NCBI GenBank assembly: GCA_000310025.1
Contig: FN649734.1
Coordinates: 2,799,739-2,863,738, forward strand
Origin: Ectocarpus siliculosus
Taxonomy: Eukaryota; Sar; Phaeophyceae; Ectocarpales; Ectocarpaceae
Reading direction: 5' to 3'
Length of the DNA stretch: 64,000 nucleotides
The notes under the pieces were generated by a model. It saw nothing but the letters and a program-made list of their open reading frames with translations. It was not told the DNA's origin and ran no database searches. This document shows, in pieces, positions 8,097 through 49,469 of this stretch (positions are counted from its first letter, which is position 1; every line of letters starts with the position of its first letter). Made by a program: the position numbers and the translations under genes.

Positions 8097-8105
8097 TAAT
8101 AGATT
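8097..8105. repeat. Left target-site duplication of the MULE
   Basis: TAATAGATT immediately precedes the left terminus; an identical copy is at 14540-14548. Confidence 0.92.
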
Positions 8106-9130
8106 CGGCACGGCTAAACACCCCACCGGTGGGGAAATTTCTTAACCACCCCACCGGTGGGGTGGTTAAGGCATAAACACCCCACCGGCTGTATCTCGCT
8201 CTACAAGACTCCAATCAGCTCAGGACTTCCACGGGTGTGCTGCTGCGTTGCAGGGCTATCATTGGACCCATCGTGAGGCCGAAACGGTACAGTTTTCGTG
8301 GTGCCACGGTTGGTGGGGCATACCGTATATGACACAAGATAACACACCCCCTGGGCCGATTTTCAAAGCTCGATTTCTCAACAGCAGGAAGAGTCACAGC
8401 GCCGAAAACGGCGGCGTTGGAACCGTCTCGTCGAGAGGTTTTCGAAAATGTATTGTTTCGTTTATGCATCCTCTTCGTCGTGGAGTAATCGAGCTTTGAA
8501 AATCGGTCCGGGGGGTGTGTTATCTTGTGTCATATACGGTATACCGCCGCTACCCCACTGGTGGGGTCGATAACGTTATTGACCCCACCAGCTGGATCTC
8601 CCTCTACAAGGCTCCAATCGATACACAACCACCTGTAGGAGTGTGTGGTCGATGCACGCACAGCGCACAGCAGCGGGCAGCACCTGGGGCGCCGAACAGG
8701 TCAAGAAATCCCGCCGCATGACGCCAAACACCCGAAGTGGGTAGCGAACACTGCCTTCTATTCTCTTGCAGGCAGACTTCCCCACTGCCGTATGTAGCCC
8801 TACAAGACTCCAATTAACACAAGACATGTTCGAATGTATTGCTGCTTTGCAGGGCTATCGTGGGATCCATGGTGAGGTCGAACGCTAAAGGTTTGGTGGT
8901 GCCACGGCCGGTGGGGCAAACAACGCAATGCATAGTGTATGCCCCACCGGTGGGGTGGATAAGGTTAAACACCCCACCAGCGGCATCTCGCCGTACAAGA
9001 CTCTAATCGAAGAACAAGCGCCATAGTTAGAGGGTGCTGTTCATGCACACACCGCGTACATCACACAGTACACAGCACACAGCACACAGCACACCGCACA
9101 CAGCAGCTCTGCACCACTGCACCACTGCAG
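8106..9130. repeat. Left terminal inverted repeat of the MULE
   Basis: Reverse complement of 13738-14539 with scattered mismatches, interrupted by the MITE at 8323-8539. It contains a perfect 30-bp palindrome at 8141-8170 centred on ACCGGT, a further CCCCACCGGTGGGG at 8121-8134 and another near 8941-8954, and a CA-rich microsatellite near 9060-9100. Small open frames at 8576-8827 recur in the right TIR only because the DNA is duplicated; they are not genes. Confidence 0.9.
8323..8539. mobile_element. 217-bp MITE with TA target duplication, nested in the left MULE TIR
   Basis: The insertion starts CCGTATATGACAC and ends GTGTCATATACGG, with about 50-bp terminal inverted repeats that differ at only about two positions. 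It is flanked by TA at 8321-8322 and 8540-8541. The right TIR shows the uninterrupted sequence with a single TA at this point. Size, long TIRs, no coding capacity and TA duplication fit a Tc1/mariner-type non-autonomous element. Confidence 0.88.
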
Positions 9131-9740
9131 CAGACGCGGGGGGGAACAAGTCAACAAATCCCTCCGCACAGGGAAATCTTGCCTTCCTCACTAATGTACA
9201 GTAGAATATCCACTGCTGTTGTTTGAGGTTCACACATGGATGCATTTCGTATCCGTTCCGTATATTGTTGCTGTTCCTTGCACGCACCATGCATTGGAAA
9301 CACCATGCCCGTTAGTCGGCGCTCTCTTTCATGTGTGACGACGTGATATACTCTTAGTGTACTGGAGCCGCGATGCATACTAGACTACATCAAGTACGTA
9401 AATACGTCCATCATCGCCGCGCTGCAAGTAGCGATGCAAAAGTAGACGGAGCGCAAGCAGGAAGGTTGTTGCCCACAGGTTAAACCCGTTGGAACCTCCA
9501 GTTGCGGTCATGAGCGTTCGGTTGTGTCTCGCCACACGAAAACAAGTAGTTCATGACGGATTGTAAGCCAGCCGCAGCCAAGGCATGGCTCCCTGCTGTC
9601 CCCGATTTTTGGTGTCTCGTATATTCCAGGAACCCTCTTTCGTTACGCCGATTTCGTTACCCCCCGGAACACGGACATTCTAATATGCCCCCCAACTCTC
9701 TGAAAAGGACACGCGGGGAATACCGTGGAAATCGTGTGGA

Positions 9741-13737: not shown

Positions 13738-14539
13738 GTGCTGCAGTGGTGCAGTGGTGCAGAGCTGCTGTGTGCGGTGTGCTGTGTGCTGTGTACTGTG
13801 TGATGTACGCGGTGTGTGCATGAACAGCACCCTCTAATCATGGCGCTTGTTCTTCGATTAGAGTCTTGTACGGCGAGATGCCGCTGGTGGGGTGTTTAGC
13901 CTTATCCACCCCACCGGTGGGGCATACACTATGCATTGCGTTGTTTGCCCCACCGGCCGTGGCACCACCAAACCTTTAGCGTTCGACCTCACCATGGATC
14001 CCACGATAGCCCTGCAAAGCAGCAATACATTCGAACATGTCTTGTGTTAATTGGAGTCTTGTAGGGCTACATACGGCAGTGGGGAAGTCTACCTGCAAGA
14101 GAATAGAAGGCAGTGTTCGCTACCCACTTCGGGTGTTTGGCGTCATGCGGCGGGATTTCTTGACCTGTTCAGCGCCCCAGGTGCTGCCCGCTGCTGTGCG
14201 CTGTGCGTGCATCGACCACACACTCCTACAGGTGGTTGTGTATCGATTGGAGCCTTGTAGAGGGAGATCCAGCTGGTGGGGTCAATAACGTTATCGACCC
14301 CACCAGTGGGGTAGCGGCGGTATATGCCCCACCAACCGTGGCACCACAAAAACTGTGCCGTTTCGGCCTCACGATGGGTCCAATGATAGCCCTGCAACGC
14401 AGCAGCACACCCGTGGAAGTCCTGAGCTGATTGGAGTCTTGTAGAGCGAGATACAGCCGGTGGGGTGTTTATGCCTTAACCACCCCACCGGTGGGGTGGT
14501 TAAGAAATTTCCCCACCGGTGGGGTGTTTAGCCGTGCCG
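13738..14539. repeat. Right terminal inverted repeat of the MULE
   Basis: Mirror of the left TIR without the MITE, so it preserves the empty site of that insertion (GGGGCATATACCGCCG on the minus strand, near 14316-14331). The 30-bp palindrome is present at 14475-14504. Confidence 0.9.
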
Positions 14540-14548
14540 TAATAGATT
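14540..14548. repeat. Right target-site duplication of the MULE
   Basis: TAATAGATT immediately follows the right terminus GCCGTGCCG and matches 8097-8105 base for base. Confidence 0.92.
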
Positions 14549-15046
14549 ACCGTTCTTCGAGGGTCTATGACTCTTACGATTCCCATCGGCTGCGAAGAGT
14601 TGATGAATCTATAGGAGAATGGGAAAAGGGTCCACGAAGGCTCGCCCACTCTCCTCGCCACCCTAGCTGGACTGAGTTCGCTCGGTCACGCTTGGCATTC
14701 CTCGCCACATTGCACCAAAGGAAATAGCCAACCTCCGGTGGCAGGACATAGCCACCACACTCCCGGACTCTCTGCTCAGCCAGAGTAGAGGGCTTCCATA
14801 TTGGCGTCGACGAAGAGATACGAACTCTCGCGGGCATAGCCCAACGGCTTAGCAAGCCGTTGTTACCTTATTAATAACCACTGGCCACGTCGACACTTTA
14901 GGCAGGTAGTACAATGCATGGTTGCTAGCAGTAGCAAGCGAGTGCAAGCGTTCCTCCTTGCTCAGTGTCTTGCCTGGGAGTGAGCGATAGCGAGCGACTG
15001 AGAGAGAAAGGAAGGATAAGGAAGGAAACAGACTGAAGAAGCGAAG

Positions 15047-15745
15047 CGTTCTGCACAAACTCCTCCTGTTGTTTTGGCAGTTCAGTCTCAGGGTGGCGGT
15101 GATGATCCGTTTTCCCGTGATTACAATGCATGGCCCGCCACACAGGGCGATTGGTCGAATGTGTACCAAGTCAGTTCCTCTTTCCGTAACACCGGTGATC
15201 CTTTTTTGTGGACTCCTCTCTTGACTCAGGACGCTCGCTCGCAAGCGTTTCGAGAGAACCGTAACCGTTGTTTGAACTGTTCTGGTGATGACCATTCCAT
15301 GAAACACTGCCCAGCTCCTTTCACAAGTTCTAGCGGTCTGTTAAACCCAGAACTAGGCGAGCTGCAAGACAACTCTGACGTTTTCCGACGTTGGCAAGGC
15401 CGTATGAGGTCTTATCGTCGCAAGCCACACACCGGTTCAGGTGCTGGTGGCGGGCGTAACAAGCGTCACTCTTCGTCCTCGCGTAGAAATCACGCAGGCG
15501 ACTACCGTAACAACGGTAACTCCCAGAATGATGGTCGCAATAATGGAAATTTTGCTCATAACTCGCGACAGCCGTCCACAGACAACACCCACCACACTGG
15601 TGGTCTGTCTACATACCGACCGCAATCGTCGGTCCAAACAGGCTCTCCTCCTGACGCTTCCGTCCCGTCCAACTACAATGCTAGACAGCCGGGAAATGTC
15701 CAATCTGGCGGTCAGAATGGCCACAATACTCGTGGTTCCAACTGA
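15047..15745 (+). pseudogene. Gypsy-1 Gag, C-terminal part with zinc knuckle
   Basis: An open frame from a stop at 15032 to the stop at 15743 encodes a Gag nucleocapsid. Bases 15269-15310 give CLNCSGDDHSMKHC, a CX2CX4HX4C knuckle that binds element RNA. It is followed by an Arg-rich stretch (RRWQGRMRSYRRK) and an Asn/Ser/Gly-rich tail. No ATG exists between the upstream stop and the conserved part, so the N-terminal capsid portion is lost or in another frame. Packaging the RNA into virus-like particles is the known family role. Confidence 0.8.
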
Positions 15746-15838
15746 CTCGTCGGTGGCGGTTCGTGTACCTCCCCCGATCCACCTTCGGCACCATCGGGAC
15801 ATATTGCACGTTCTTCACAGGATGTACGTGTATCAGGG

Positions 15839-16680
15839 ATGGTGGAGCGAGGTGCTCCTGCCCTGCGAAACGCTGGTGCCCTTGCACCCGCTGTTTCTTC
15901 TTCATATTCGGTCAAGAGGGTTGGGAATGCACAAGACGATTCCGTTCCTCTTTCACGCTCCGACATTTCGCTTGCGACCTCTGCTACTTCGCCTCTTTCG
16001 ATGGGTACTTCTTCGGGAAATGACTCTCCCGAGGCGAGTGCCGTCTTGAGGTGCGGGGACAGAGCGACCAGACGCGCGGGGCCACCGAGTGTAGTTCGGC
16101 AGCTCCCCCCGGTGTCTGCAGGTAAGACCGGCAAGAGCAACGCGCTTTATATGATTGAGGAGGATTCGTCAGAAGTGGTCAATTCTGATTCGTCTTCTGC
16201 TACGTGTGATTCGTCTGCGCTCGCTGCCGCCGTTGGTCCGCCAGCCGCCGCAGCACCGGTAGCGGTTTCGTCAGGTTCCGACCGACGATTCTCGCCCGGT
16301 GGGGCTAAGCAGACCCCACCAATTGCCAACGCGAACGATCGTGGTGCAAACCAGGAACATCCCGCGATCGACCTTGAGAGTGTTGACAGCACCGTCTCCA
16401 GAGGACGCTTCAGAGACGCCCGCCGTAAATACGGTATGCTCGCGATCCTTGTCACGGAGGACCGGTCAGGAGCACCTTGCACCGTCCAAAGTTGTATTGG
16501 CAGACAAAGCACTGGTGGCCGCTCCTAGCGAAAGCGATCTATATGCCCCCTGGTCCGGATCGGATGCGGGTACGGTAGAAGATCTAGAAACGGACTATAC
16601 GAAGCGTGGCGCCCCCGTTTATCTCGGCGAATTCGGCAGTGTATTTGAATTCTCCGATGGACCCACCCCCTGATTTAGGC
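15839..16680 (+). pseudogene. Low-complexity spacer of the Gypsy-1 polyprotein
   Basis: Open frames at 15839-16528 and 16299-16673 are rich in Ala, Ser, Pro and Asp with no recognisable domain. They lie between Gag and NADAR in the same orientation and in shifting frames, so I read them as a decayed linker of the polyprotein rather than as separate genes. Confidence 0.45.
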
Positions 16681-16881
16681 AGTTTAGCAATGGATGTCAA
16701 TCCCTTTGCCCGTACCCCTGGCACCGGTCCATCTGCAGAAGATGTTGACCATAATGCTGCCCAGGCGTCTCCCACTTCAGGTCATTTAGCAGTTGACACA
16801 CATCCTGCTCGTACTTCTAGTCATCGTCCGTCCTCGGAAGACGCTGGTTTCGATGCTACTCAGGAGTACTCCAATTCAGAC

Positions 16882-17345
16882 GTGGTCCTATTTTGGAAAT
16901 CCCCTTCTCCCTTCTGTCAATGGACCCCATCTACTTTTTTTGTCGTTGATGGTACTTCGTATGTGTGTGCAGAGCAATTTTTTGCTGCAGAGAAAGCTCG
17001 TCTTTTCGGCGCCGCGAATGTTTACAGAACATCATGAGAGTTTCCGACCCCGATCTACACAAGAAGTATGGTCGTGCGGTCCAGGGTTTCGACCAAACTC
17101 TCTGGGAGAAGGAGCACGAAAATATCGTGCTGACCGCCTCTTACACTAATCTTTCCCAAAACCCAGAGATGAGACTACACCTCCTTGGATCCGGAGACAA
17201 ACTTTCAACAGAAGCCAGTCCTTATGACTGCATTTGGGGAATCGGTCTTTGTGCAGATCATCCGGACGCTTGCCGTCCGTCTCATTGGCGTGGTCTTAAT
17301 CTGTTGGGTGTTGCTTTACAGAAAGTTCGCCAACTTTTACGATCA
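16882..17345 (+). pseudogene. NADAR (YbiA-like) domain inside Gypsy-1, one frameshift
   Basis: The first half is in one frame (FWKSPSPFCQWTPSTFFVVD, then CAEQFFAAEKARLFG) and the second in another (IMRVSDPDLHKKYGRAV, LSQNPEMRLHLLGSGDKL, EASPYDCIWGIGL, WRGLNLLGVALQKVRQLL). A one-base slip near 17022-17030 separates them. The order and content match the NADAR superfamily: the aromatic entry strand, the AEQ..AEKA helix, W...I...SQN, EASP.D.IWGIG and the GLNLLG..L..VR end, about 150 residues in all. Known members act on NAD-derived or ADP-ribose substrates; the E. coli relative YbiA is an N-glycosidase and some members remove ADP-ribose from guanine. A role here in countering host ADP-ribosylation is pure inference. 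It sits between Gag and protease, where LTR elements sometimes carry captured modules. Confidence 0.87.
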
Positions 17346-17599
17346 AACGCCCCACAGCCAGAACGTAGTTCTCGCTTAGCGGCTTCGGGTGAAACGCCCA
17401 GGCCAGATCGCCCTACCGTGTTCGAACTTAATCCTTCCACGCATCAGCGGCTGTCGACGGCGTCTGTGCCGTCGTCTTCGGAGCGTTTTGCGTCATTTTC
17501 GCAATACGCCACTAGTGTCCCGTCCGATCAGGGCAACAGCGTTTGGGCTGTGTCTCGGAACACTGACCATTCTGGTCCTCAGTCGCCTCTGCTTCCTGA

Positions 17600-18110
17600 G
17601 AAAGGTCCTAGTTTAGTCGGCGGTGTCATTACCGTTGACGATGACTCTTTCACTGCACGAACCCTCACCCATTGTGGCTCGGCTTCTACGCAATTTGGAT
17701 GCGTGGCATTGCTGTACACCGGTGGTTCACCGCAGACTTTCGTCAGTTCTCGAACTTGGGAGTCCATGAAAGCCGCGGGTGAAGCTTCGTCGTTGTTTGA
17801 AACACGCACCCAACCTGGTTGTTGGGGAGGGGTTTGGTGAGTCCGCCCCCCTTCAAACGTCGACCATGGTCCGTTTAAGCGTGCAGTTTCTTCGACGAAA
17901 ATTCCCGACCGATTCTCTCACCGTTTGGGCGTATGTTGTGCCTGACGGTGTTATGCAACATGATGTGTTGCTCGGCAGAGATAGTTGGATGCGGTTTAGC
18001 GACCGTTCCTACCGTGCCTTGCCCACACGACGCCCCAGTGATCGCGTTTTCGGGGAACAGACTTTAGCCCATAAGCAGGGTGGTGCTGAAGCTTTTGTGC
18101 ATGATGTCAC
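17600..18110 (+). pseudogene. Gypsy-1 retropepsin, active site altered and frameshifted
   Basis: The protease start reads GCVALLYTGGSPQTFVSSRT, where family members have Asp-Thr/Ser-Gly; here Asp is Tyr. After a frameshift near 17800 the second half continues (VWAYVVPDGVMQHDVLLGRD, then SWMRFSDRSYRALP), ending with the typical LLGRD-SW segment. It would normally cleave the polyprotein. Loss of the catalytic Asp plus the frameshift make it inactive. Confidence 0.75.
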
Positions 18111-18343
18111 TGCTCGTGAGGGTAGTTTCCAGCTTAGATATGCTGGCCGACATCCAATTCAATTGCTGCCTGAACACCAACTTGTTCGTGTTGATGTAGT
18201 TCGCAGTGATGGGTCTCCTGCCCTTGTAAGCAATTATCTGGTAGATATGTTTGCTCAAACGTCCATGTTTTCTTCAGAAGAACATTTTGTTACTCATGGC
18301 CGCCAACGTGTGCCATTAGCGGGAGTTTCGAGTTTGGAACCGG

Positions 18344-20130
18344 GTGATGTCTTGGGTACCGCTTCAGCGCCCCTTTCTCAAGGTTCCTCTTAGTGCGTTT
18401 CCGTGTGATAACGACGGAGCTGGTCTTCCGGCCAGCGCCGTTCCACCCACTCCCGCTTCGGACACCTCGCAATCTGCCCAAACGGATCCTGGCCCCGTTT
18501 TTAGCTACGATGGCTCCGGTTCGATAGCGTCACCGACGGCTCATTCGTTTGTGTATGATTTGCATGAACGGACCGCCAAACCGCCGCACCCAGCGCCTGG
18601 TTCGGATCCTTCTGATTCGACTCCTCTTTCGCCTCCTTCGGCTCTTTTGGCGCGTTTAGCACCAGATCAACGTGCCAGTTTCTCACGTGTGTGGGATAAG
18701 CTCCCCCTTCACTTGCGAGAAATCACGTTTAATTTACATGGTCCTGGTTGGACATCGGACGTTATTACCGAATTGGGTACTGTGCTATGTGAATACCACG
18801 ACGTGTTTTCCAGTTCGCCTACGGATTTCGGTTCTTGTTCATTGTTCCCGTTCAAGTTGACCGTTCCCCCCGGCAGTGAGCCCGTTACATCTCGTCCGTA
18901 CCGAGTTAGTCCTCCGGTTTCGAAGCAAGTGGACGCTATTCTCGACCAATATCTTGCTGCGGGTCTTATACAACACTCGACGTCACCGTTCTCGAGTCCT
19001 TTGGTTGTTATACGCAAGAAATCCGGTGGTGTTCGCATCACCGTAAACTATCGTAAGTTGAATAAACTATGTGCTCTTAGTCATCTTCCGATTCCTAGAG
19101 CTGATGATACTCTGGACAAATTGTTGAAGGGAAGTATTTATTCTCTCTTTGACATGAAATCTTCGTTCTATCAAATCAAGTTTAATCGTGATACCACCCC
19201 TCTCACGGCGTTTGTTACGTCTTCTGGGCTGTTTGAGTGGTTGAAAATGCCTCAGGGCAGTGCCGCTGCTCCCAGATGGTTCTGTAAGGTCGTCAACGAA
19301 GTCATCAAAAATCTTCGGGGTGTTTCGTCGTATCTGGACGACCTCATTGTCTTTGATGAGACCCCGGGCGCTCATGTAGCGACCATTCGCTCTCTTTTCG
19401 AAAGATTGCGGAAGCATAATTTGAAACTGACTCCTCCGAAAGCCACTATTGGCGCCACGGAAGCCGAGTTTCTTGGGCACACTATATCTCCGGACGGAGT
19501 TCGGCCCAACGGTGAAAAAGTTGTTGCTCTCACCAAGATGCCGATGCCCAAAGACACCAAGCAGCTTCGAGCTTTGCTGGGTGGTTTGGGCTACTACCGG
19601 AAGTTTCTTCCACAGATGGCTAAGCGTATTCGCCCTCTTACGACTCTTCTTAAGAAGAATGTGAAGTTTGAGTTCACGGGTGCAATGGAATCCGTCGTTC
19701 GCCAACTTCTCGAGGAACGGGCGAACCCTCCAGTTCTGGTGTATCCAGATTGGGATGCTGTATCCGACGGTTCGTGCCCTTTTCGCCTCTACTGTGACGC
19801 GAGTAAAGATGGGTTTGGTGGAACTTTGGAACAAGAGCAACCTGATGGCTCTGTTCGGCCTATCGTTTTCGTTAGCCGAGCTACTTTGGAGTCTGAGCGT
19901 CATTGGACTCCTCTGGATCTTGAAGCTGGCAGTATCATTTGGTGCATCAAGCGCCTTCGCGGTTACCTATGGGGCACTCAGTTCAAGATTTTCACGATCA
20001 CAAGTCCCTTGAACACCTTGCAAAGGTGGGGGAAAACAACGCTCGCGTTCAACGTTGGTTGGAGTTCCTCATGAGTATCGCAAGGGTTCGTCTAACGGCA
20101 ATGCTGACTTCCTTTCTCGACTACCGATAG
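18344..20130 (+). pseudogene. Gypsy-1 reverse transcriptase and RNase H
   Basis: An open frame at 18344-20074 contains the Ty3-type RT: a SRPYRVSPPVSKQVD entry, LVVIRKKSGGVRITVNYRKL, LFDMKSSFYQIKF with the first catalytic Asp, MPQGSAAAPRWF, and the intact SSYLDDLIVF active site, then FLGHTISPDGVRPN and the thumb. RNase H follows (LYCDASKDGFGGTL, RHWTPLDLEAGSIIW). Near 19990 and 20070 the frame shifts; the continuation VGENNARVQRWLEFL and YRKGSSNGNADFLSRLP is in other frames. RT residues look preserved but RNase H is broken. The enzyme copies element RNA into DNA inside particles. Confidence 0.88.
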
Positions 20131-20218
20131 AAGCTACCGAGCGTGACCGTTCTGGCCGCAGTCGTTTGACTCCGTCGGCTGAAGATGAAGCGGTTATTTT
20201 ATCCGCTCTTGTGGATTT

Positions 20219-21005
20219 GTGCCTTCTGGCCATCAAGCCGGTGTTGGCTTGGGTGGGCTCGTCCCGTCCGCCCCGAGTTCAGTCTTGGGTGGCCTACCGC
20301 CTTCTTCAGCTGATTTTGCTGATTTTCGCAAGCACGGACCACGCGCTAGTGTCGCTCATTCCGGAGTTCCCTCGGGCGTCTGGTCTGTTAGAGGATTAAC
20401 CCCGACTGTTATCGGTTCTTCGGGCTCTACAACCGCTCGCAACCGCCCTCCCTTGGTCGCCTCGGATCGTTCTGCAGTTTCGACTGCTGCTGATGTTTTT
20501 TCCTTACAGGATGCGACAGAGACGCCCGCTACACGCCCTGGTGCTTCATCCAGGCGTTCCCTGGATCCTACCGATCTAATTTCGACACGGACCAGTCGGC
20601 GAGCTGCTGCTGCCGCCGGTACTCCGCGCCCGGCTGTGGACTATGGCTTTTCCCAGCCGGAGGACTCGCTTCTAGAGCCGGCTGTCCCTCAGCCTGTAGC
20701 TCGTACGCCTCGCGCTCATCAATCTTCGGCTTCCCGGCCGGTAGATTCCGCCGCTTCGGCGCCACTGAGTCCAATTCCGGAGATGGCCGTTCGCTCAGAC
20801 CCGACACCGCCGACGTCCGAGTCTGGACCATTGCTTGGTTCGGTGCATATTTATTCCGCCGGCTATTGATACCCCAGTGCTTTCGGGAGTGGAGCTCGAT
20901 TTCCGCGAATCGGTTGAGCGTTTTTCCCATTCTGATTGGGCGAGAGAACAACACGGTGAACCCGTGTGCGATGCCGCCATACGCTACATCCTTCTAGGTC
21001 AACCT
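20219..21005 (+). pseudogene. Gypsy-1 RNase H to integrase linker
   Basis: A Pro/Ser/Ala/Thr-rich segment containing LDPTDLISTRTSRRAAA and ending WAREQHGEPVCDAAIRYILL. Both motifs recur in Gypsy-2 on the other strand (ELSGLISTRTRRKSG and WAREQREEPVCEATIRYILL), proving common ancestry. Immediately after it the sequence jumps to the integrase C-terminus, so the H2C2 and DDE core are missing. Confidence 0.7.
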
Positions 21006-21880
21006 TCCGAATGATGGCAGTCCTCTCGAGGCCAAGTTGTTATACTTGGATCTTCCGTCGGACTTGCCGGGCAAAGACTCGAAACGTCGTGTTTCGGTCG
21101 CACGCTGCAAGCCATGCGCCAATCCGCATGACGCTGAGGACCTACCACGGTTTCTGTCGGCTGGTACGCAGTATCTTTTAAACAACTAAATATACGACCA
21201 AATATCCTCCGTATCATGTTACGGAAAATGACGTCTCGACTTCGGTCGAACGTCTCGAGGTGGAACAAATTACTGGTCACCAGTCTGTTCACGGTCGTGG
21301 TGGTGTTATCGCTGTTCTGTGTCAGACACATTGGAAGGGTCTTCTCCGCCCTTCTTGGGAGCGTGAGATGGACCTTCAGCACTCTCGATCGCAGATTCTC
21401 CGGTATTGGACGGGTACGCTCGATCAACACCGTCAGACGAATCGCCGTTACCGTGCAATGCGTATTGGCGCAGCCGCACGCGAATTGGCACGTGCTAAGG
21501 GTGAGAGATATTTGCCTCCGGGTTACTCCTTTGTCTCCCGCTCAACCTGGGGCCGTCGTTTCGCCGATACTCCTCTACCTGTGGGTGCGTTCTTCTGGTA
21601 CAAGGCTCAAGATGGACTCTGGTGGCTGGGCAAGATTTTTGGACCGACAGCGCGGGCCGACGACTACATCGTCCGCTTCCTCGACGACCCCGGACCGGTC
21701 AAGATCGCCCTCTCCGTTGTTCGTTACTCTACCCTCGGATCTGCCGTCTGCGGTTCGTGGTGCACTCAAGTTCACGGCGGTAGCGCTCTCATGAAAGGAC
21801 TTCTACTTCGCAATGTCGACATGTCGCGAAACGTGGAGGCGGAGCATTCGTCGCCAAATGATTCGGCACGCGCCGATTAG
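21006..21880 (+). pseudogene. Gypsy-1 integrase C-terminus: chromodomain plus Tudor-like module
   Basis: The frame starting before 21260 gives VEQITGHQSVHGRGGVIAVL then THWKGLLRPSWEREMDLQHS, a chromodomain of the kind that targets chromovirus integrase to histone marks. After a basic helix (RRYRAMRIGAAARELARAKG) comes VGAFFWYKAQDGLWWLGKIF ... DDYIVRFLDDPGPVKIALSV, which resembles a Tudor/PWWP-type SH3-like barrel. The same two modules occur in Gypsy-2. The preceding segment (LPSDLPGKDSKRRVSVARCK, PHDAEDLPRFLSAG) is also shared and lies in other frames. Confidence 0.72.
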
Positions 21881-22239: not shown

Positions 22240-22916
22240 GGCGTCATTAGGTATTATTTGTGGTTAGTTAGCTTAAACGGACTAGCCGTGAGTATTTTCG
22301 TCGCTTTTAGTCGTTTGGACGACACCGACTGCTTCGTGTTTTGTATCGCTTTGTCGATACGGTTGGTTATCGCCGTTCCGACGGTGTTTTTCCAGCGTTT
22401 TCGTCCTTTCTTTGGGTTCCGACCTGTTATGGTATTTGTAGCGTCGACGTTTTCGTTTGTCGTGTTTATTGTCCCCCTGTTTCATTCCTACTGTAGCCCC
22501 CGTCTTTTCCTTCTCTATCGTTCTTTTTGGGTGGGTCAAACGATGGTCTTGCGACTCATCGTGTGAGAGGTGTGGGAGGGTGATTCTTGGTATTTTGGAG
22601 CTCCACATCCTCGATCCTTTCATTTTTTGGCATTCGACAATTATCGGTCAAGTTCCTAGGTTTCAAGTATCTGCGTATGAGAACCTCCAGGGTGGGCTAG
22701 TGTTGTGGGATTTGAATGTAGCCAGTGCCAACGGTATTGCGGAGTAATGCCCAGAGGAAAGTGCGGGAGATGTAACTCCCAATGGAAGGATAAAACAGGG
22801 GACAGGACCTTTGTGGCCCCTTTAGAGGGAGCATGTCCTCCCCCTCTGTGCTCAGTCTACCTTTGAGAGCAAAGCAACAACAAGCACTGCTGTTCCAAGC
22901 GATTGATAAACAAGTG
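22240..22916 (+). repeat. Putative 3' LTR region of Gypsy-1
   Basis: Bases 22390-22620 match 57790-57985 (shared GGAGCTCCACATCCTCGAT and CTTGCGACTCATCG). Bases 22760-22900 match 45020-45170 and 58510-58620 (shared GTGCGGGAGATG and AAGGATAAAACAGGGGACAG). Finding both blocks downstream of pol and again elsewhere without coding sequence is how LTR material behaves. The hydrophobic open frame at 22222-22566 is therefore not a gene. Exact LTR borders are not determined. Confidence 0.6.
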
Positions 22917-24290
22917 AGTCTTCATCAGGGTCTTCAGGGATCGCTACGCGTGTAATCCCACAACAAACCCCTGACCTGACCTCTAGAAGGTTTCGAGGAT
23001 ACGAACTAGACCACCGGGGCGACCGGATGCATTACAATGTACGAAACTTTCATCGCAAATTAACCGTCCGTCAGCTGACCCCCCCCGTCGTGTACAATGT
23101 TAGCATCTGAGATTGCAGCCCTCGTGATGCACAACATAATACAGAGTAGGGGTGGCGATTTTCCAAACGATCCTTCTATCATCATCGAGATCGTTGAGCT
23201 GCAAGCAGGAATTTTGACGCCGCTGCGGTGCGGTCCGATTTTGAAAGGACATTGACCGCGATTCAGCGCCTATCTATGTGAGTGAGTGTGTGGGGCCGCG
23301 AACTTGAGTGCAGCTCTTCCCTCACATATCCTACTCGTCGCCATAGTCGATTTGAATGCCTGAGGTCATGTGTATGCAGGTCTAGCCATATGCAAAAGGT
23401 GCTTGAAGCGTTTCAAAATCGGAACGCAGCTTCGAAAACCCTGCTTGTCGCTCACCACCCATCCATCTCGATGATGGGAGGGTTGTTCGGAAAATCACGG
23501 ACCGCTAATCTAATCTGTCTGTAGTGTACACAAGAGGGGCTACGATCTCAGAGACTAACTTAACGTTGTACACGATAGGTAGGGGGGTCAGCGAAGAAGG
23601 TTAATTTGCGATGGAAGTTTCGTACCGGAGTTAGACTTGGAAAACTAAGATATACTGAATGAATGGTGTTTCCCGAAGTATTGAAAGGGAGGTAGGTCTG
23701 TCTGCGAACTCCAGTGCGCCCTTAACCCTCATAGTAGTATTGGACGCCCCAGTAGGGACACTTCGGGGACACAACGAACGTTCAAATGTCTGTTTGCCGC
23801 ACCGTTGTCGCGCCAGGCTCCGCTGTGTGAAACGCACGTGAGAGCGATTGGTCTATCATGCTTGGGTCGTACGCGGTGTGATACGCTGTGTGATGCCTGT
23901 CCTCGGCGTCCGACTATAGTTTTTTCTGGTTCAAAATTAAGTATGAGGCAACGAATCCATCTCTTATCTTTTCTCTGTGTATCATCGGGTTCATCGATCA
24001 GTACATAATACTCTCTCGGTGAGCCGGCACACGGGCGGACACATTCTTCTTCGCGTGGAACTGGGCCTATCCTCCATAACTTTCAACTGAAATTCCCAAG
24101 GGTTTACTCGGTAATCTCGGATTTAGACGCATCTAGATTTCGGAACGAAATCGGGAAGAGTCAGATATTCCAGAAAGGATGTTGGAAAATGACCCCACCT
24201 AGTTTAGTCCCCCTTTTCTCTCCCGAAATACATACGCCGGAACAGAGAAGAAGGGGTATATTTGAGACCATCCCACCCGCCCTACACAAT
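22917..24290. other. Intergenic sequence, no gene recognised
   Basis: Mixed sequence with short open frames only (60-80 codons), none with a recognisable domain. GAAACTTTCATCGCAAATTA (near 23043) recurs in inverted form near 23601-23620, suggesting the ends of an old insertion. Confidence 0.4.
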
Positions 24291-24834: not shown

Positions 24835-25115
24835 CCGTCAAATTACCGCCGTGGTGGGCGGTCCCGGTAATCCGCCGTTTTACCGCCGTTTTTTGGTTTT
24901 ACCGCCTCCGCCAAAGTCGTAACCGCCGAAAAACGCATTACCGCCGTCGGCCAAAAAATCTACCGCCGTATGGCTTTACCGCCGAAAAATTACCGCCTGT
25001 TTTTGGTTTTACCGCCTCGGCCAAAGTCGTAACCGCCGAAAAACTCATTACCGTCGTCCGCCAAACAATTACCGCCAATTGGCATTACCGCCGAAAACGT
25101 GTCCGCCTAAAATAC
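24835..25115 (+). repeat. Clustered TACCGCC motif array with about 109-bp higher-order repeat
   Basis: The heptamer TACCGCC occurs about ten times in 280 bp, with further variants (AACCGCC, TCCGCC). Two longer blocks, about 24892-24967 and 25001-25076, are near copies of each other 109 bp apart. An open frame runs through (24777-25247), translating to FTAEKLPP-type repeats, but the repeat explains the frame and no domain is seen. Confidence 0.75.
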
Positions 25116-44600: not shown

Positions 44601-45180
44601 CTATCATGCGCGGTGCAATGTCGTCATATCAACCGGTGTGTTAGTTGTCACCCGAAAGATCCTTGTATTGTGTTGAAGGTGGTGTAGAGAGCACAGACAA
44701 GATGAAGGGTAGCACACAACCACTCAATACCGGTGCGAAAAAATGTGCATGCATAATCTTTCATTAATTCTTGTTGCGTCCTTTCGACGCCAGTTGGGTT
44801 TGTAAGAAGAAACGGCAAGCAAAGACGGACAACCATCGGCTACAATACTCAATGTGATGTAGAGAGTAGTGTAATAGGATTAAAAAACGACGTTACTAGG
44901 GAAATCATGCCAACACAGAAGAAATACTACCCGTTCGATATATAACCACAGTCGAAGGGATGTGTTGAAGTCTTTGTAGTGATATGTGTAGGCGGAACAA
45001 AGATAATTATTCCTTCTACAATGTGCGGGGAGATGTAACTCCCCGTGGAAGGATAAAACAGGGGACAGGATCTAGTAGCTGCTTGAGCAGCGGAATCCGC
45101 CCCCCTGCTGTTGTCAGTCCTCTACCAAGGCAACAGCAACAGCTGCTGTTCCGCACGGGTTAATAACAAGTGAATTTGTA
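44601..45180 (+). repeat. Dispersed motif copy and LTR 3' fragment
   Basis: 44912-44972 is a copy of the 55-70-bp dispersed motif. 44990-45172 matches the Gypsy-1 3' LTR end (GTGCGGGGAGATGTAACTCC, AAGGATAAAACAGGGGACAG, TTAATAACAAGTGA) and the copy at 58465-58620. It is an isolated LTR end with no adjoining coding region. Confidence 0.6.
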
Positions 45181-45549
45181 ACGGATTTGACCCCTTCCTT
45201 CAGAATCAACCACCGAAGGCTTTGTGGAACTCTCTTGTCCGACCACAGGTGCAGTTGTTGTTGCTTCCGTTGTTCTCTTTCATTAACGCTTTCCCACGCC
45301 AACTCACACAGATCCCGAACACACAACGATCATCCGATCGTACGCACACTGAACAGAAGGAAGGGCATACATGCCTCGGCCTAAATGCCCAAATCTTGCA
45401 TGACATCACGTAATAGCATCTGACGACGCCAATTAACCGTGGTCAAGAACGCTCACATGTCCACTTCCAAATACCATAACACTAGCCCACCCTCGGTGGG
45501 GTCGTAGATGTAGATACAGAAGCAAACCTCGGCTCCAGTCAGTCAAGAG

Positions 45550-46560
45550 GTTTGGGAAATGGATCGAAGTTACGACAACTCAAAACCCTCACCTGCACCT
45601 CTCCGTTAACCAAACAAAAGGAGCGGAACCGAGAGGGAGGAAAACATGTAGGAAATGGGGGCGGCAAAGTCGGCGGGTTATATCGGGGAAAAGGTACGCG
45701 GGGTGCGAAAAATAACCAAAACATCCGAACCGAAAGACCATAAACACGAAGTAAGGAAATCGCGAAGGGAAAAAGACAAACGATCTCGCACGAACGAACA
45801 GTCGACTATGCAATCAAGTAAGCAAAACCTTACGGGAAGGGGGGCTACTATGCGATCGAGTACTGTACATGAACGAAAAAAGACACCAAACGAAAACCTA
45901 GCCGGTCGCGGCATGTCGTCGACATGGAAAACCAAGTGTTGACCAAACCAAGTGTTGACTAAAATCGAGAAAATTCATCGAAAGAGGGGATTTTCGGGGG
46001 GAAACAGGCTTTTCGGCCAAAGAAACTGACAGGATATAGATGCCATAAAAAAGAACATTCGCAGGTCACGAGAAGGGGGCGTTCGACAACAATCCTAATT
46101 TCAATTCAAGACCAAATGCACAGAAAAAAGTGCTGTAGAATGTAGCAGTATGGGACACAATTCGGCCATGGCACGCAATAGAAGCTCTAGCGGAACGTCG
46201 GACCACCAAAACGCAAAACAAACCACAGGCGGGATGATAATGGCACACAGGGGGGTGGCACCACCATTAAGAACAAATCTAGGTCGCGTTGAAAAAAACA
46301 TTAAGGAGAGCGAAAATTGCGGTGGCCGCCCGACGTATGACAAACGACGGCGGAAAAGTTCGCAACACCAAGGCGAAAGCCAGTCTCAAAGGGGTTGAGA
46401 GGGCGAGTGGAAAACAGAAAGGAGCAATAGCCAGTCTCAAAACCAATCAAGAGGGTGAGCGAGAAACGCAAACACAAACAAACGCACATACACATACACG
46501 TACACAAATAACGGCAACATTCCTGTTAGCCAGGGGCGACAGTATCCGTACCACTTGATT
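45550..46560. other. Purine-rich plus strand, no gene recognised
   Basis: Long A/G-rich stretch on the plus strand (GGAAAAC and AAACCA words), lacking conserved reading frames. Open frames on both strands are basic or Phe/Leu-rich because of composition. Confidence 0.4.
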
Positions 46561-46629
46561 CGTCTACATTCGCAAAGTACCTCGGATGGAGGGACTACTT
46601 CGGTGCAGCTGAAGGCACCAAGATCCTCA

Positions 46630-47327
46630 AACAGCTCTCAAAGCTGTGGCGTAGCGTAAAGGAGAAAGGGTGATCTTGACAGGTCCGGGATCGTCCACGA
46701 AGCGAATGAAGAAGACATTTGGAATTGGAGTATGCCCGGAGATTTCCCTAGCCACCACAAGCTCAAGTACGAGAAGTGTGCGCCAACAGGCACGGTGTTG
46801 CGAAAACGGCGGGCCCAAACATTGCGGGGAGCATATTCGTACCCACGCGACGAGGATCGCTCGCCTTTGATGCGGGACAGTTCACGTTCCGCTGCGCCAA
46901 TGCGCATGCAACGATACTGACGGTTAGCCTGTCGGTGTTGGTCGGGCTTTCCAGCCCAATCAGAAGAATACAGAAGAATCTGCTTGCGGGAGTGCTGGAG
47001 GCCCATTTCACGTTCCCACGAGGGGCGCATATGGCATTTCCATTGGATCTCGTACACAACGGCGATGGCGCCGCGAAGTCCGCGAACCGACTGGTGTCCC
47101 GTGATTTTCTCAACCTCTACCCTGCGGACAGGCGAGGAAACATCGCCCGCGGTAACATGGTACGGCGGAGTCTTCCACGTGTAGTGGTTGAGAACGTACT
47201 GCGTCAGGCCGGCAGGCAAAAACGGAAGCATGTCGTCACTGTCGTGCGGGTTCGCGTACGGTTTGCAACGAGCGACTGAAACTCGGCGCTTGGCATCCGC
47301 GACGGACATGTCGGAGGGAAGATTCAA
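46630..47327 (-). pseudogene. Gypsy-2 integrase C-terminus: chromodomain and Tudor-like module
   Basis: VEKITGHQSVRGLRGAIAVV then CHMRPSWEREMGLQHSRKQI is the chromodomain; RRYR-like basic helix and VGAHF ... LWWLGK then FIRFVDDPGPVKITLSPLRY is the Tudor-like module, split by one frameshift near 46740. Strong motif agreement with Gypsy-1 (WWLGK, RF.DDPGPVKI.LS..RY) indicates selection on both modules while the family was active. Confidence 0.75.
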
Positions 47328-47541
47328 CTACAGGAGCTTGTCAGCTATCGGGCGGCCATCCGGAGCCTTGTCGCAAGGACCGACAGCAAGGATTTTAGGA
47401 GGACCTGACCAATATCACGATAGCTCCTTCTTATCTGCGCGGGACTTCAAATCTAGTTTGGAACCTTGGCGGATGGTAGCCGCAGAGTTGTACGCCCATA
47501 CCCAACCACCGGTATCGTAAGCGGGTAGTTTGAGTAAGGCA

Positions 47542-48436
47542 TCAGACAATTTCGAGTTCCGTCGTTCCATATACCGTGAGTGTGTGTTGTTCACGTACTA
47601 GCTCGTAGGAGCGCCGTTGCCGATTGGCGGCAAGGTTGCAATACTCGAGCTGATCACGTGCAAGCGACTGGTGACCACGAGCGTAAATGTTGTCAAAAAC
47701 GGTTTGTGAACACCGGGGAAGGCGCATCATATGCACCTCGTTAGGCGCCATTCCTGTGGCAGCGCTAACAGAATTGTTGTAAGCGAATTCAACGTGAGGG
47801 AGATGGATGTCCCAATCATGTTGACGTTCATCCACGACCATAGCCAGCATCTGGGCCATGGTGTGGTTCACGCGCTTAATCCCGCCGTTGCCGCTTGGGT
47901 AGTACGCGCAGTCGCTATTTTGCGGACGCGTAATAGTTTCAGGATGGCAACCGAAAGTTTGGAGCAAAACTGCAATCCGTTATCCGAAATAATGCTGAGC
48001 GAGCATCCACAAACAAGCACGTACTTGTCGACGAGAACATCGACTGTACCTTCAGCGGTAAACTCGGATCAGTCACTGCGTACTTATTGGCTCGCCGACT
48101 GAAACTCTCAGTGAAAATCAAGATATACGAGAAACATCGCGGAGTTGAGGAAAGCGGACCCAATAAATCGACGCTAATCGCCACCCCTGGCGCAGAAGGT
48201 AGAGGGATAGTCAGAATCGGCCAGTGAATAGTCTGACTCGCCGTTTTGCGGTCCTGACATTTCAAACGTCGCCGAATCCACCAACGAGCACTAACACTCA
48301 TCGCAATCCACCAGAAGAATCTCTGAAGCAAGATAAGTGTGCGAGCGGTACCACGGTGGCAGAGGGCGTTGGCATAATTGGACTGCATGACCCAAGGTTG
48401 CATTGACACCTGGGCACGTACGAGTGGGTTCGTCAT
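47542..48436 (-). pseudogene. Gypsy-2 integrase core, inactive
   Basis: The zinc-binding part reads HRGTARTLILLQRFFWW ... RLKCQDRK, where the first Cys of the CxxC pair is Arg. The core has AISVDLLGPL (first Asp) and YYPSGNGGIKRVNHTMAQML, where family members have Glu and this copy has Lys. A frame change separates 48436-47939 from 47967-47542, and the second-Asp motif is garbled (TDCS in place of SDNG). Integrase would insert the DNA copy into the genome; these changes make this one inactive. Confidence 0.8.
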
Positions 48437-49469
48437 TCAAATGTCATGCAGCTCGTCCTCCTGGACGGTCACAAGAGACCGGGGACTTGGTAGGCCGTCT
48501 GATCAAGAGGCCGTGGCCATCGTCAGTGACGAGGTGTCCAAAATCTGCAAGCTCTCGAATTTCCGCCAACGATGGTCGATGAGGGATACGACACTCCGTC
48601 AAAGAAACCATCTGGTAGACTCGGACAGCGCTTGAGTAGAATGTAGCGGATGGTGGCTTCACACACCGGCTCTTCTCGCTGTTCCCGCGCCCAATAGGCA
48701 CGCGTGCAGCGTTTGACGAACTCGCGGAATCTAACTCTGCAGGATTGAGGACCATGGCATCCACTGCGGGTGTTGTCGTAGCAGCTGAAGCAGCCCGTCG
48801 AGACAAGCCCAACAGAGGACCCGTAGGGGCGTTGGTAACCGCCTCCGGCGGCGCTATAGGCATCGTTGGGACAGGTTCGACGATAGGCTCAGGCGTGGTG
48901 ATGGCGGGAGGCACTCGTGTTTGACGACGAGAAGCACTTGGAGGGGCAGCTGCACGCGGAGCGTGAGTGGGGATACAAATCGGGACCGAAACCATCATTC
49001 ACATCAGGCTGCGGCTGACCCGCAGCAGCCGCTTTTGCGACGCGTACGAGTAGAGATCAGTCCCGACAGCTCAAGACGACGCGGTTGCAACCGAGAGGTC
49101 GAAAGCGGTGGCAATAAATCGGCGGCATCCAAAAGATCAGATTGGGTGCCGGCGCCGACGGTTGCGGACGCAGGAGGCACGACAGGGCGCAACCGAGAGC
49201 TGTCATCGGCGGCGTGTGTGTCATGGATAGGGAGCGCTATTGCAGCTGTATCATCGGGTGCTGCCTGGTTCGTGTTGCGGCTTGTGCGTGCTGCTGCTGC
49301 CAGCTTTTGCTCTTTCGTCCCCAACACAGCTTAGGTTTGCCTCGTTTATCAGTATGTCGCAACGTCGCAACCTAACATTTGTTCCTCGGACTCTGCTTCG
49401 GCAAGTCCAGAGCGTTCAGACCGCTCGCGCTCGTCGGTATCTTTGCACAGTGTAGCAGCCTTCGGGGCG

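Follow-up and report, generated by a model that had tools for sequence, protein, structure and literature searches.

A Ty3/Gypsy retrotransposon lineage in the brown alga Ectocarpus siliculosus carries a NADAR (YbiA-family) domain in its Pol polyprotein, between Gag and protease, and the conservation of that domain across the genome suggests an enzyme retained for the use of the element itself. The combination is already in print: Dinatale et al. (2025, Genome Biol 26:320; PMC12477816) describe a NADAR-Gypsy lineage in Ectocarpus, with Gypsy-12_Ec32 as the example. The copy discussed here lies in a stretch of 64,000 nucleotides (the window, C9:2799739-2863738 of the assembly), where the NADAR domain spans 16882..17345 on the plus strand and is broken by a frameshift.

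The Pfam NADAR profile, PF08719, matches two overlapping frames of the window. Frame 16588-17037 scores 22.1 bits over profile positions 2-56, which alone is under the 35.1 cut-off, and frame 16950-17840 scores 94.8 bits (E 9e-27) over positions 46-163. Jointly they cover profile positions 2-163 in order, with the change of frame falling inside the domain, and a chance match is excluded. A sequence-only reading of the window had reported a NADAR domain at these coordinates, disrupted by one frameshift in this copy and sitting between the Gag and protease of a Ty3/Gypsy element. The coordinates, domain order and frameshift are all borne out, as is the setting, with a zinc-knuckle Gag upstream and protease, reverse transcriptase (RT) and RNase H downstream. 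The catalytic glutamate and lysine (E88 and K95 of E. coli C7) can both be recognized by eye in the broken domain, and a histidine stands at the equivalent of R93, an arginine of the Phytophthora nicotianae enzyme that contacts ADP-ribose.

The window copy is dead, being 5'-truncated, frameshifted in NADAR, damaged in protease and deleted for integrase. All of its parts lie on the plus strand. What remains of Gag is a 3' portion (15020..15745, from the ORF and the sister alignment) with a CCHC zinc knuckle, CLNCSGDDHSMKHC, identified by eye. Similarity to sister loci starts only at 15045, which means that most of Gag is gone along with the 5' LTR; no 5' LTR was found, and between 12000 and 26000 the sole direct repeat of at least 40 bp is a short pair (24880-25069). 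Gag ends in a TGA followed by C (15743..15745), in frame with the Pol ORF at 15746-16528, an N-terminal linker without a Pfam match. Beyond the NADAR domain lies the damaged aspartic protease (ORF 17690..18393), in which the active site reads TGGSP near 17715 as against D[TS]GSP in 11 open sister Pols, and which had no match in the Pfam search. The RT and RNase H follow at 18320..20074 (RVT_1 90.9 bits at about 19010-19486; RT_RNaseH 76.7 bits). An internal-deletion junction at 21012 marks where about 1270 bp of the sister locus L014 are absent, the integrase among them. Identity to the sister loci is about 94-95% over 15045-21012 and then resumes past the deletion in the Pol C-terminal tail (21043..21880), which in the sisters is weakly chromodomain-like and then, by eye, SH3/Tudor-like; in the window this tail had no Pfam match, and its single-sequence fold (pLDDT 32) was useless. 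The copy ends in a 3' LTR remnant (22701..22965) that is 96% identical to LTR-like sequence of sister loci L027 and L030. Located 5' of the element is an inverted repeat (8097-9132 / 13739-14549, about 98% identical), possibly another mobile element.

A second, related Gypsy element lies on the minus strand of the window, represented by an LTR (45177..45481, 81% identical to its L019 counterpart), a Pol C-terminal tail (46638..47327) and an integrase region (47583..48467, 64-68% to NADAR-lineage copies). No NADAR was found near this element (45177-48467) among the matches listed from the genome-wide profile search.

The 189.5-Mb assembly, in 492 contigs, holds at least 150 NADAR matches (150 of 230 candidates were scored, and 150/150 exceeded the Pfam cut-off). 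At the DNA level, with 40 of 68 candidates scored, the window's own subfamily occupies at least 10 places at 94-100% identity, itself included, and at least 30 further places match it at 68-70%. When the RT of locus L019 served as the query, at least 117 matches were recovered, some being parts of one copy (116 of 584 candidates scored). Of the 117 listed matches, 98 have a same-strand NADAR no more than 3.5 kb upstream (median distance 1549 bp), and 19 have none listed. Among these 19, C11 and C43 do have a NADAR region in the DNA search and C63 has one in the interval sequence, which brings the association to at least 101 of the 117 listed RTs of the lineage; inspection of the interval sequences revealed no NADAR at the expected place for C26, C16 and one RT on C92. 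In the other direction, 53 of the 150 listed NADARs have no RT within 3.5 kb downstream among the RT matches listed (again from 116 of 584 candidates). A random insertion confined to one copy, the outcome that the sequence-only reading had set against its own proposal, is therefore ruled out, both by the number of NADAR matches and by their place 5' of the RTs, and the intact relatives on which it had wanted function tested do exist, among these matches and as open sister Pols.

Two well-preserved copies display the full structure of the lineage. The L019 copy extends from C14:320022 to 333053, about 13.0 kb, between LTRs of 315 bp that are 99.05% identical; the LTRs of the L020 copy are 299 bp and 99.67% identical, and each copy is bordered by a 4-bp target-site repeat, found by eye. 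Within the L019 Pol, NADAR occupies residues 384-533 (156.8 bits over profile positions 2-163 of 163), followed by RVT_1 (1076-1234), RT_RNaseH (1330-1432), H2C2 (1901-1958) and rve (1975-2074). The L020 Pol has the same domain order, with rve at 29 bits, below its cut-off of 32.6. The tails of the two proteins give chromodomain-like matches of 16.3 and 12.6 bits, below the Pfam cut-off of 25.1, and a conserved SH3/Tudor-like stretch can be made out by eye thereafter. The order in the lineage is thus Gag, TGA-C, linker, NADAR, protease, RT, RNase H, integrase and a weak chromodomain-like tail, and both copies have the protease-RT-RNase H-integrase arrangement, the LTRs and the target-site duplication that define Ty3/Gypsy elements. 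Two NADARs of the genome, at C3:3913787-3914242 (L069) and C489:435177-435536, sit in reading frames of 10,887 and 6,365 aa, whereas the frames of the better copies are much shorter at 2,000-2,580 aa. The EsV-1-7 cysteine motif, which has proliferated in brown algae according to PMC12477816, is matched in the genome at least 150 times (150 of 880 candidates scored), consistent with a stramenopile host and suggestive of a brown alga.

The manner in which Gag and Pol are joined bears on how much of the domain would be made. At nine loci and in the window, adjoining Gag and Pol ORFs share one frame and are split by TGA-C; seven more abutting ORF pairs in five loci have different stops or lie elsewhere than the Gag-Pol site. 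A junction motif (TGAC, eight bases, GGYRG) was sought in 20 long loci, window included, and occurs in 17, in register with NADAR in 13 and out of register in four, one of them the window; it was not found in L021, L025 or L027. Going upstream in the NADAR frame, the first stop is the TGA-C in 12 of the 19 loci other than the window. L021 and L025, which form one NADAR-Gypsy family, lack a TGA-C Gag stop. UGA-C is a leaky stop context, and the layout points to readthrough of the Gag stop. Among four families that were folded, three have a predicted stem 1-3 nt past the stop (z -0.64 to -2.95) and L015 has none 3' of its Gag stop (z +0.58), while 120-nt folds at the stop give z between -1.51 and +0.15; the predicted stem is suggestive only as a readthrough signal. 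The Candida element Tca2 also has a gag-UGA-pol arrangement, yet its flanks are reported to have given zero readthrough in yeast (PMC2194720). With Pol behind the Gag TGA-C stop, the NADAR enzyme is probably made at the low level of Pol.

The active site was compared in an alignment of 85 domain copies with the chain of PDB entry 8bau, the window copy being left out and residues numbered, by alignment, after PMC11543638. The copies were chosen mostly from the better-scoring of the 150, so that the counts favour intact ones, and seven of the 85 have an internal stop. The catalytic glutamate E43 is present in 85/85, the lysine K50 in 83/85 and E125 in 84/85. Retention is similar at W133 (84/85), R79 and W89 (82/85 each), R93 (80/85), K75 and G78 (81/85 each) and V81 (84/85); position 84 is F in 82/85 as against Y in 8bau, and position 86 is variable. 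At the position that distinguishes YbiA proteins, assigned by alignment to 8bau, 84 of the 85 copies have a glutamate and one has a stop. Glutamate, not aspartate or histidine, marks the YbiA subfamily there (PMC11125620), which makes the lineage NADAR YbiA-type and not of the DarT-linked BC4488 type; the latter assignment is rejected, there being neither the aspartate signature nor, in an exon-by-exon search of the genome, a DarT match.

Structure comparisons agree with a YbiA-type fold. A sequence search of the PDB returned 8bau at 68.2 bits and 2b3w (YbiA) at 43.3 bits. The model of P0006, a short relative within the Gypsy clade, has a mean pLDDT of 90, and its best PDB match is again 8bau (Foldseek E 1.2e-12, TM 0.71/0.79, 27% identity), with 2b3w at E 4.8e-8. 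The P. nicotianae NADAR of 8bau, which is ADP-ribose-bound (PMC11543638), would thus have its YbiA-type fold and active site in common with the lineage, as judged from this model; 8bau is by title a NADAR domain-containing protein, whereas the lineage domain sits in a retroelement polyprotein.

Selection on the domain was assessed by pairwise Nei-Gojobori comparison of 78 stop-free copies. Of 3003 pairs, 2387 were saturated or undefined, and those besides the pairs binned below had dS under 0.02. The median NADAR dN/dS is 0.19 for 339 pairs with dS 0.02-0.1, 0.23 (pooled ratio 0.53) for 69 pairs with dS 0.1-0.3, 0.61 for 18 pairs with dS 0.3-0.6, 0.17 for 36 pairs with dS 0.6-1.0, and 0.11 for 23 pairs with dS 1-2.

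A sharper comparison sets the domain against its neighbours in 12 chosen pairs of open Pols, with segment borders drawn by hand and the protease (PR) segment beginning just past the active site. The NADAR ratio is defined in eight of these pairs and saturated in four. In seven of the eight it lies at 0.06-0.15, below that of the adjoining linker; the five close pairs give 0.12, 0.14, 0.14, 0.15 and 0.15 on 3 to 13 differing codons, with the linker at 0.39 to 1.91. L014 against L015 or L023 gives 0.06 for NADAR, 0.55-0.57 for the linker and 0.04 for RT (PR in L014/L015, 0.11), and L012/L016 gives 0.12, 0.67 and 0.21, respectively. The exception is L017/L019, with 1.22 for NADAR on five differing codons and 1.01 for the linker. 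The linker ratio is 0.39-0.79 in nine of the 11 sister pairs where it is defined, and PR is high once (1.31, L015/L023). Between families, identity is 58-80% in NADAR, 66-89% in RT, 48-71% in PR and 20-43% in the linker. In L012 and L020 compared with L016, dS is 0.095-0.106 across NADAR and the following spacer against 0.024-0.028 across PR and RT, an excess of about fourfold, as if recombination had exchanged this segment between copies.

The role that we rate highest for the domain, though at somewhat less than an even chance, is that of an in-particle hydrolase that clears guanine ADP-ribose from the RNA or cDNA of the element, the window holding a decayed copy of a Gypsy element with this Pol-borne enzyme. 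The Gag stop would be read through at a low rate, placing NADAR at Pol dose; the domain would be packaged in the particle within Gag-Pol and then released by the protease; and, acting as an ADP-ribosyl (N-glycosyl) hydrolase, it would strip ADP-ribose from guanines of element RNA or new cDNA, unblocking reverse transcription and integration. An ADP-ribosyltransferase of the host or of a bystander would supply the marks. It is the retained active site, the selection and the place at the start of Pol that together make this the most likely role. The sequence-only reading had likewise proposed that the domain may remove ADP-ribose that host defence has attached to the element's RNA or cDNA, a suggestion that fits the conserved active site, the selection and the published activity on guanine ADP-ribose of DNA and RNA. 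NADARs are reported to take guanine-linked ADP-ribose off DNA (PMC11543638) and to be the only hydrolase family, among those tested, active on ADP-ribose of RNA guanosine (PMC11833690).

That said, the same work found E. coli YbiA and the T4 NADAR to be less active on RNA than the DarT-linked C7 NADAR (PMC11833690), which counts against the in-particle hydrolase, the lineage domain being YbiA-type. Also weighing against it are the NADAR ratio of 1.22 in L017/L019, the small numbers of differing codons behind several low ratios, the four saturated pairs, the median of 0.61 at dS 0.3-0.6, the three RTs with no NADAR at the expected place, the 53 listed NADARs with no listed RT downstream, the lack of TGA-C in L021 and L025, the stem not predicted in L015, and the Tca2 result. 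As to the source of the marks, an exon-by-exon search of the genome gave no match for DarT and four short, exon-size matches of the PARP family, two of them with an internal stop and none known to modify nucleic acid. Tpt1/KptA was rejected as a source, having no genome match exon by exon and leaving phosphate-end marks, on which NADARs are reported to be inactive (PMC11833690). The full defence story is unlikely to be correct at every step; its core, an active ADP-ribose-related hydrolase that belongs to the element and is under selection, is far more probable.

The most credible rival, which we consider doubtful, keeps the hydrolase and changes its substrate. The domain would act on small molecules, whether signals derived from NAD, ADP-ribose itself, its cyclic forms or RNA-repair by-products, and so blunt a soluble host alarm. 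The conserved active site is compatible with this activity and with nucleic-acid cleaning alike. PMC9503650 proposes soluble ADP-ribose derivatives as substrates of phage NADARs and, for those of RNA viruses, macromolecular substrates, leaving both proposals open. The location at the start of Pol behind the Gag stop would instead favour action inside the particle, near RNA and cDNA. A more distant alternative, decidedly unlikely in our view, is a domain that serves mainly to bind ADP-ribose, for targeting or assembly; together with the chromodomain-like tail it would anchor the pre-integration complex at broken DNA or at chromatin bearing ADP-ribose. The aligned copies do retain the ADP-ribose contact residues, and the lineage has such a tail, below the Pfam cut-off here and given as a chromodomain in PMC12477816, but the catalytic positions E43, K50 and E125, which a domain that only reads ADP-ribose could do without, are conserved like the contact residues.

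Less probable still is a step unrelated to ADP-ribose, for example N-glycosidase action on riboflavin intermediates, as in some YbiA relatives, or help with RNA processing. A riboflavin-pathway activity is cited in PMC9503650, and Dinatale et al. suggest processing of the RNA intermediate (PMC12477816); however, riboflavin chemistry brings no obvious gain to a retroelement, and all NADAR/YbiA proteins tested in PMC11125620 acted on guanosine-ADP-ribose. Finally, that the domain is a functionless passenger from one insertion of a host or bacterial gene is very improbable: the decay of the window copy, the internal stops in 7/85 domains and the single dN/dS of 1.22 speak for it, but it is contradicted by the low ratios in seven of eight defined pairs with the linker as internal control, by catalytic residues retained across families down to 58% domain identity, and by the presence of NADAR upstream of at least 101 of the 117 listed RTs.

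The in-particle hydrolase may have parallels outside this lineage. A tree was built from 36 non-redundant rows representing 100 stop-free domains, and 21 Gypsy-type rows (14 of the Ectocarpus genome, P0001-P0003 and P0006-P0009) share one side of a branch with support 91/97, not starred. The neighbours of this clade are mostly bacterial NADARs plus two from eukaryote transcriptomes, and no single sister is resolved. The best named free-standing matches (from the best 120 of 1242) come from Planctomycetes, Myxococcota and Streptomyces at 52-59% identity, and phage relatives reach about 51% among the matches listed. P0001, P0002 and P0003 are Gypsy-type Pols with NADAR, recovered in a protein search with the L019 Pol restricted to NADAR, and only P0002 has an integrase match; the search also returned P0004 and P0005.

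Other orders of retroelements are also represented. NADAR sits at 155-307 (138.3 bits) in P0132, a polyprotein of Copia type with RVT_2 (189.9 bits), rve, SH3_retrovirus and Tudor. P0005 combines NADAR (154.5 bits) with RVT_1 (57.4 bits), lacks rve, and shows by eye a methyltransferase-like stretch and a tyrosine-recombinase-like end; P0004 has NADAR at 111.7 bits and a C5 methylase match of 29 bits, with RT- and recombinase-like stretches seen by eye only. We read P0004 and P0005 as DIRS-like polyproteins, and in a BLASTP comparison of the two NADAR alone aligns well. All three of P0004, P0005 and P0132 keep the catalytic glutamate and lysine; the third acidic residue is missing from P0004 and R93 from both P0004 and P0005, and in P0132 a Y replaces W133. 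The best tree favours separate captures by Gypsy, Copia and DIRS-like elements, but a single origin stays compatible with the data (AU p 0.27 for Gypsy with Copia and 0.09 for Gypsy with P0005 and its relative P0131). The Copia and DIRS-like cases suggest capture in several retroelement orders. A search of IMG/VR found no relatives of P0132 or P0002; the P0005 NADAR is matched there at two loci, whose contigs are about 355 kb long. The domain also occurs in large proteins: P0126 and P0127, from the mollusc Haliotis, are 4719 and 4240 aa long and score 631 and 377 bits for NADAR against a 176-aa query region, perhaps as many repeats, and P0129 and P0130 join NADAR with PF00856, which we take to be a SET domain, P0130 having in addition PF02223 and PF01712, presumably nucleotide kinases.

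Taken more broadly, NADAR could be a counter-defence enzyme captured repeatedly by retroelements (Gypsy, Tx1 LINE, Copia P0132, DIRS-like P0004/P0005) that erases guanine ADP-ribosylation from their RNA or cDNA; we think this unlikely as a whole. If true, it would imply that algae and other eukaryotes defend themselves against retroelements by an undescribed ADP-ribosylation of nucleic acids. To our knowledge, reversible ADP-ribosylation of DNA or RNA is known chiefly from bacterial toxin-antitoxin systems and phage conflicts, and a selected, ADP-ribosyl-hydrolase-like domain in Pol points to a eukaryotic setting where such marks may matter. The lineage moreover offers testable proteins: intact domain copies exist, their active site is defined and the substrate prediction is clear.

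Compared by description, Gypsy-12_Ec32 (PMC12477816) and the lineage examined here are both Ty3/Gypsy elements with a YbiA-family NADAR near the Pol N-terminus. The published element has a C-terminal chromodomain; the chromodomain-like match here scores 16.3 and 12.6 bits against a cut-off of 25.1. Blastp matches beyond Ectocarpus were nearly all bacterial in that study. The passages of PMC12477816 at hand contain no Gag-TGA-C-Pol layout, active-site counts or dN/dS set against linker and RT, nor a fold match or Copia or DIRS-like NADAR cases. Among the papers listed, no second one stood out as describing NADAR in retrotransposons, and none as describing a Copia or DIRS element with NADAR. An oyster Tx1 LINE, reported in the same paper (PMC12477816), is likewise a retroelement with NADAR, but the domain is in a LINE ORF1 and the hits are divergent by that paper's account. 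RNA-virus polyproteins place NADAR beside a polymerase, as here, but an RNA-dependent RNA polymerase (PMC9503650); the main text of that paper contains none of 'retrotranspos', 'retroelement' or 'reverse transcriptase'. The DNA-methyltransferase retrotransposons of Symbiodinium and Klebsormidium carry a cytosine methyltransferase instead of NADAR, and neither NADAR nor YbiA appears in the main text that describes them (PMC5890265). Like the elements discussed here, they exemplify recurrent enzyme capture, by LINE, DIRS and Gypsy elements, and in one case the reported Ka/Ks is below 0.2 (PMC5890265).
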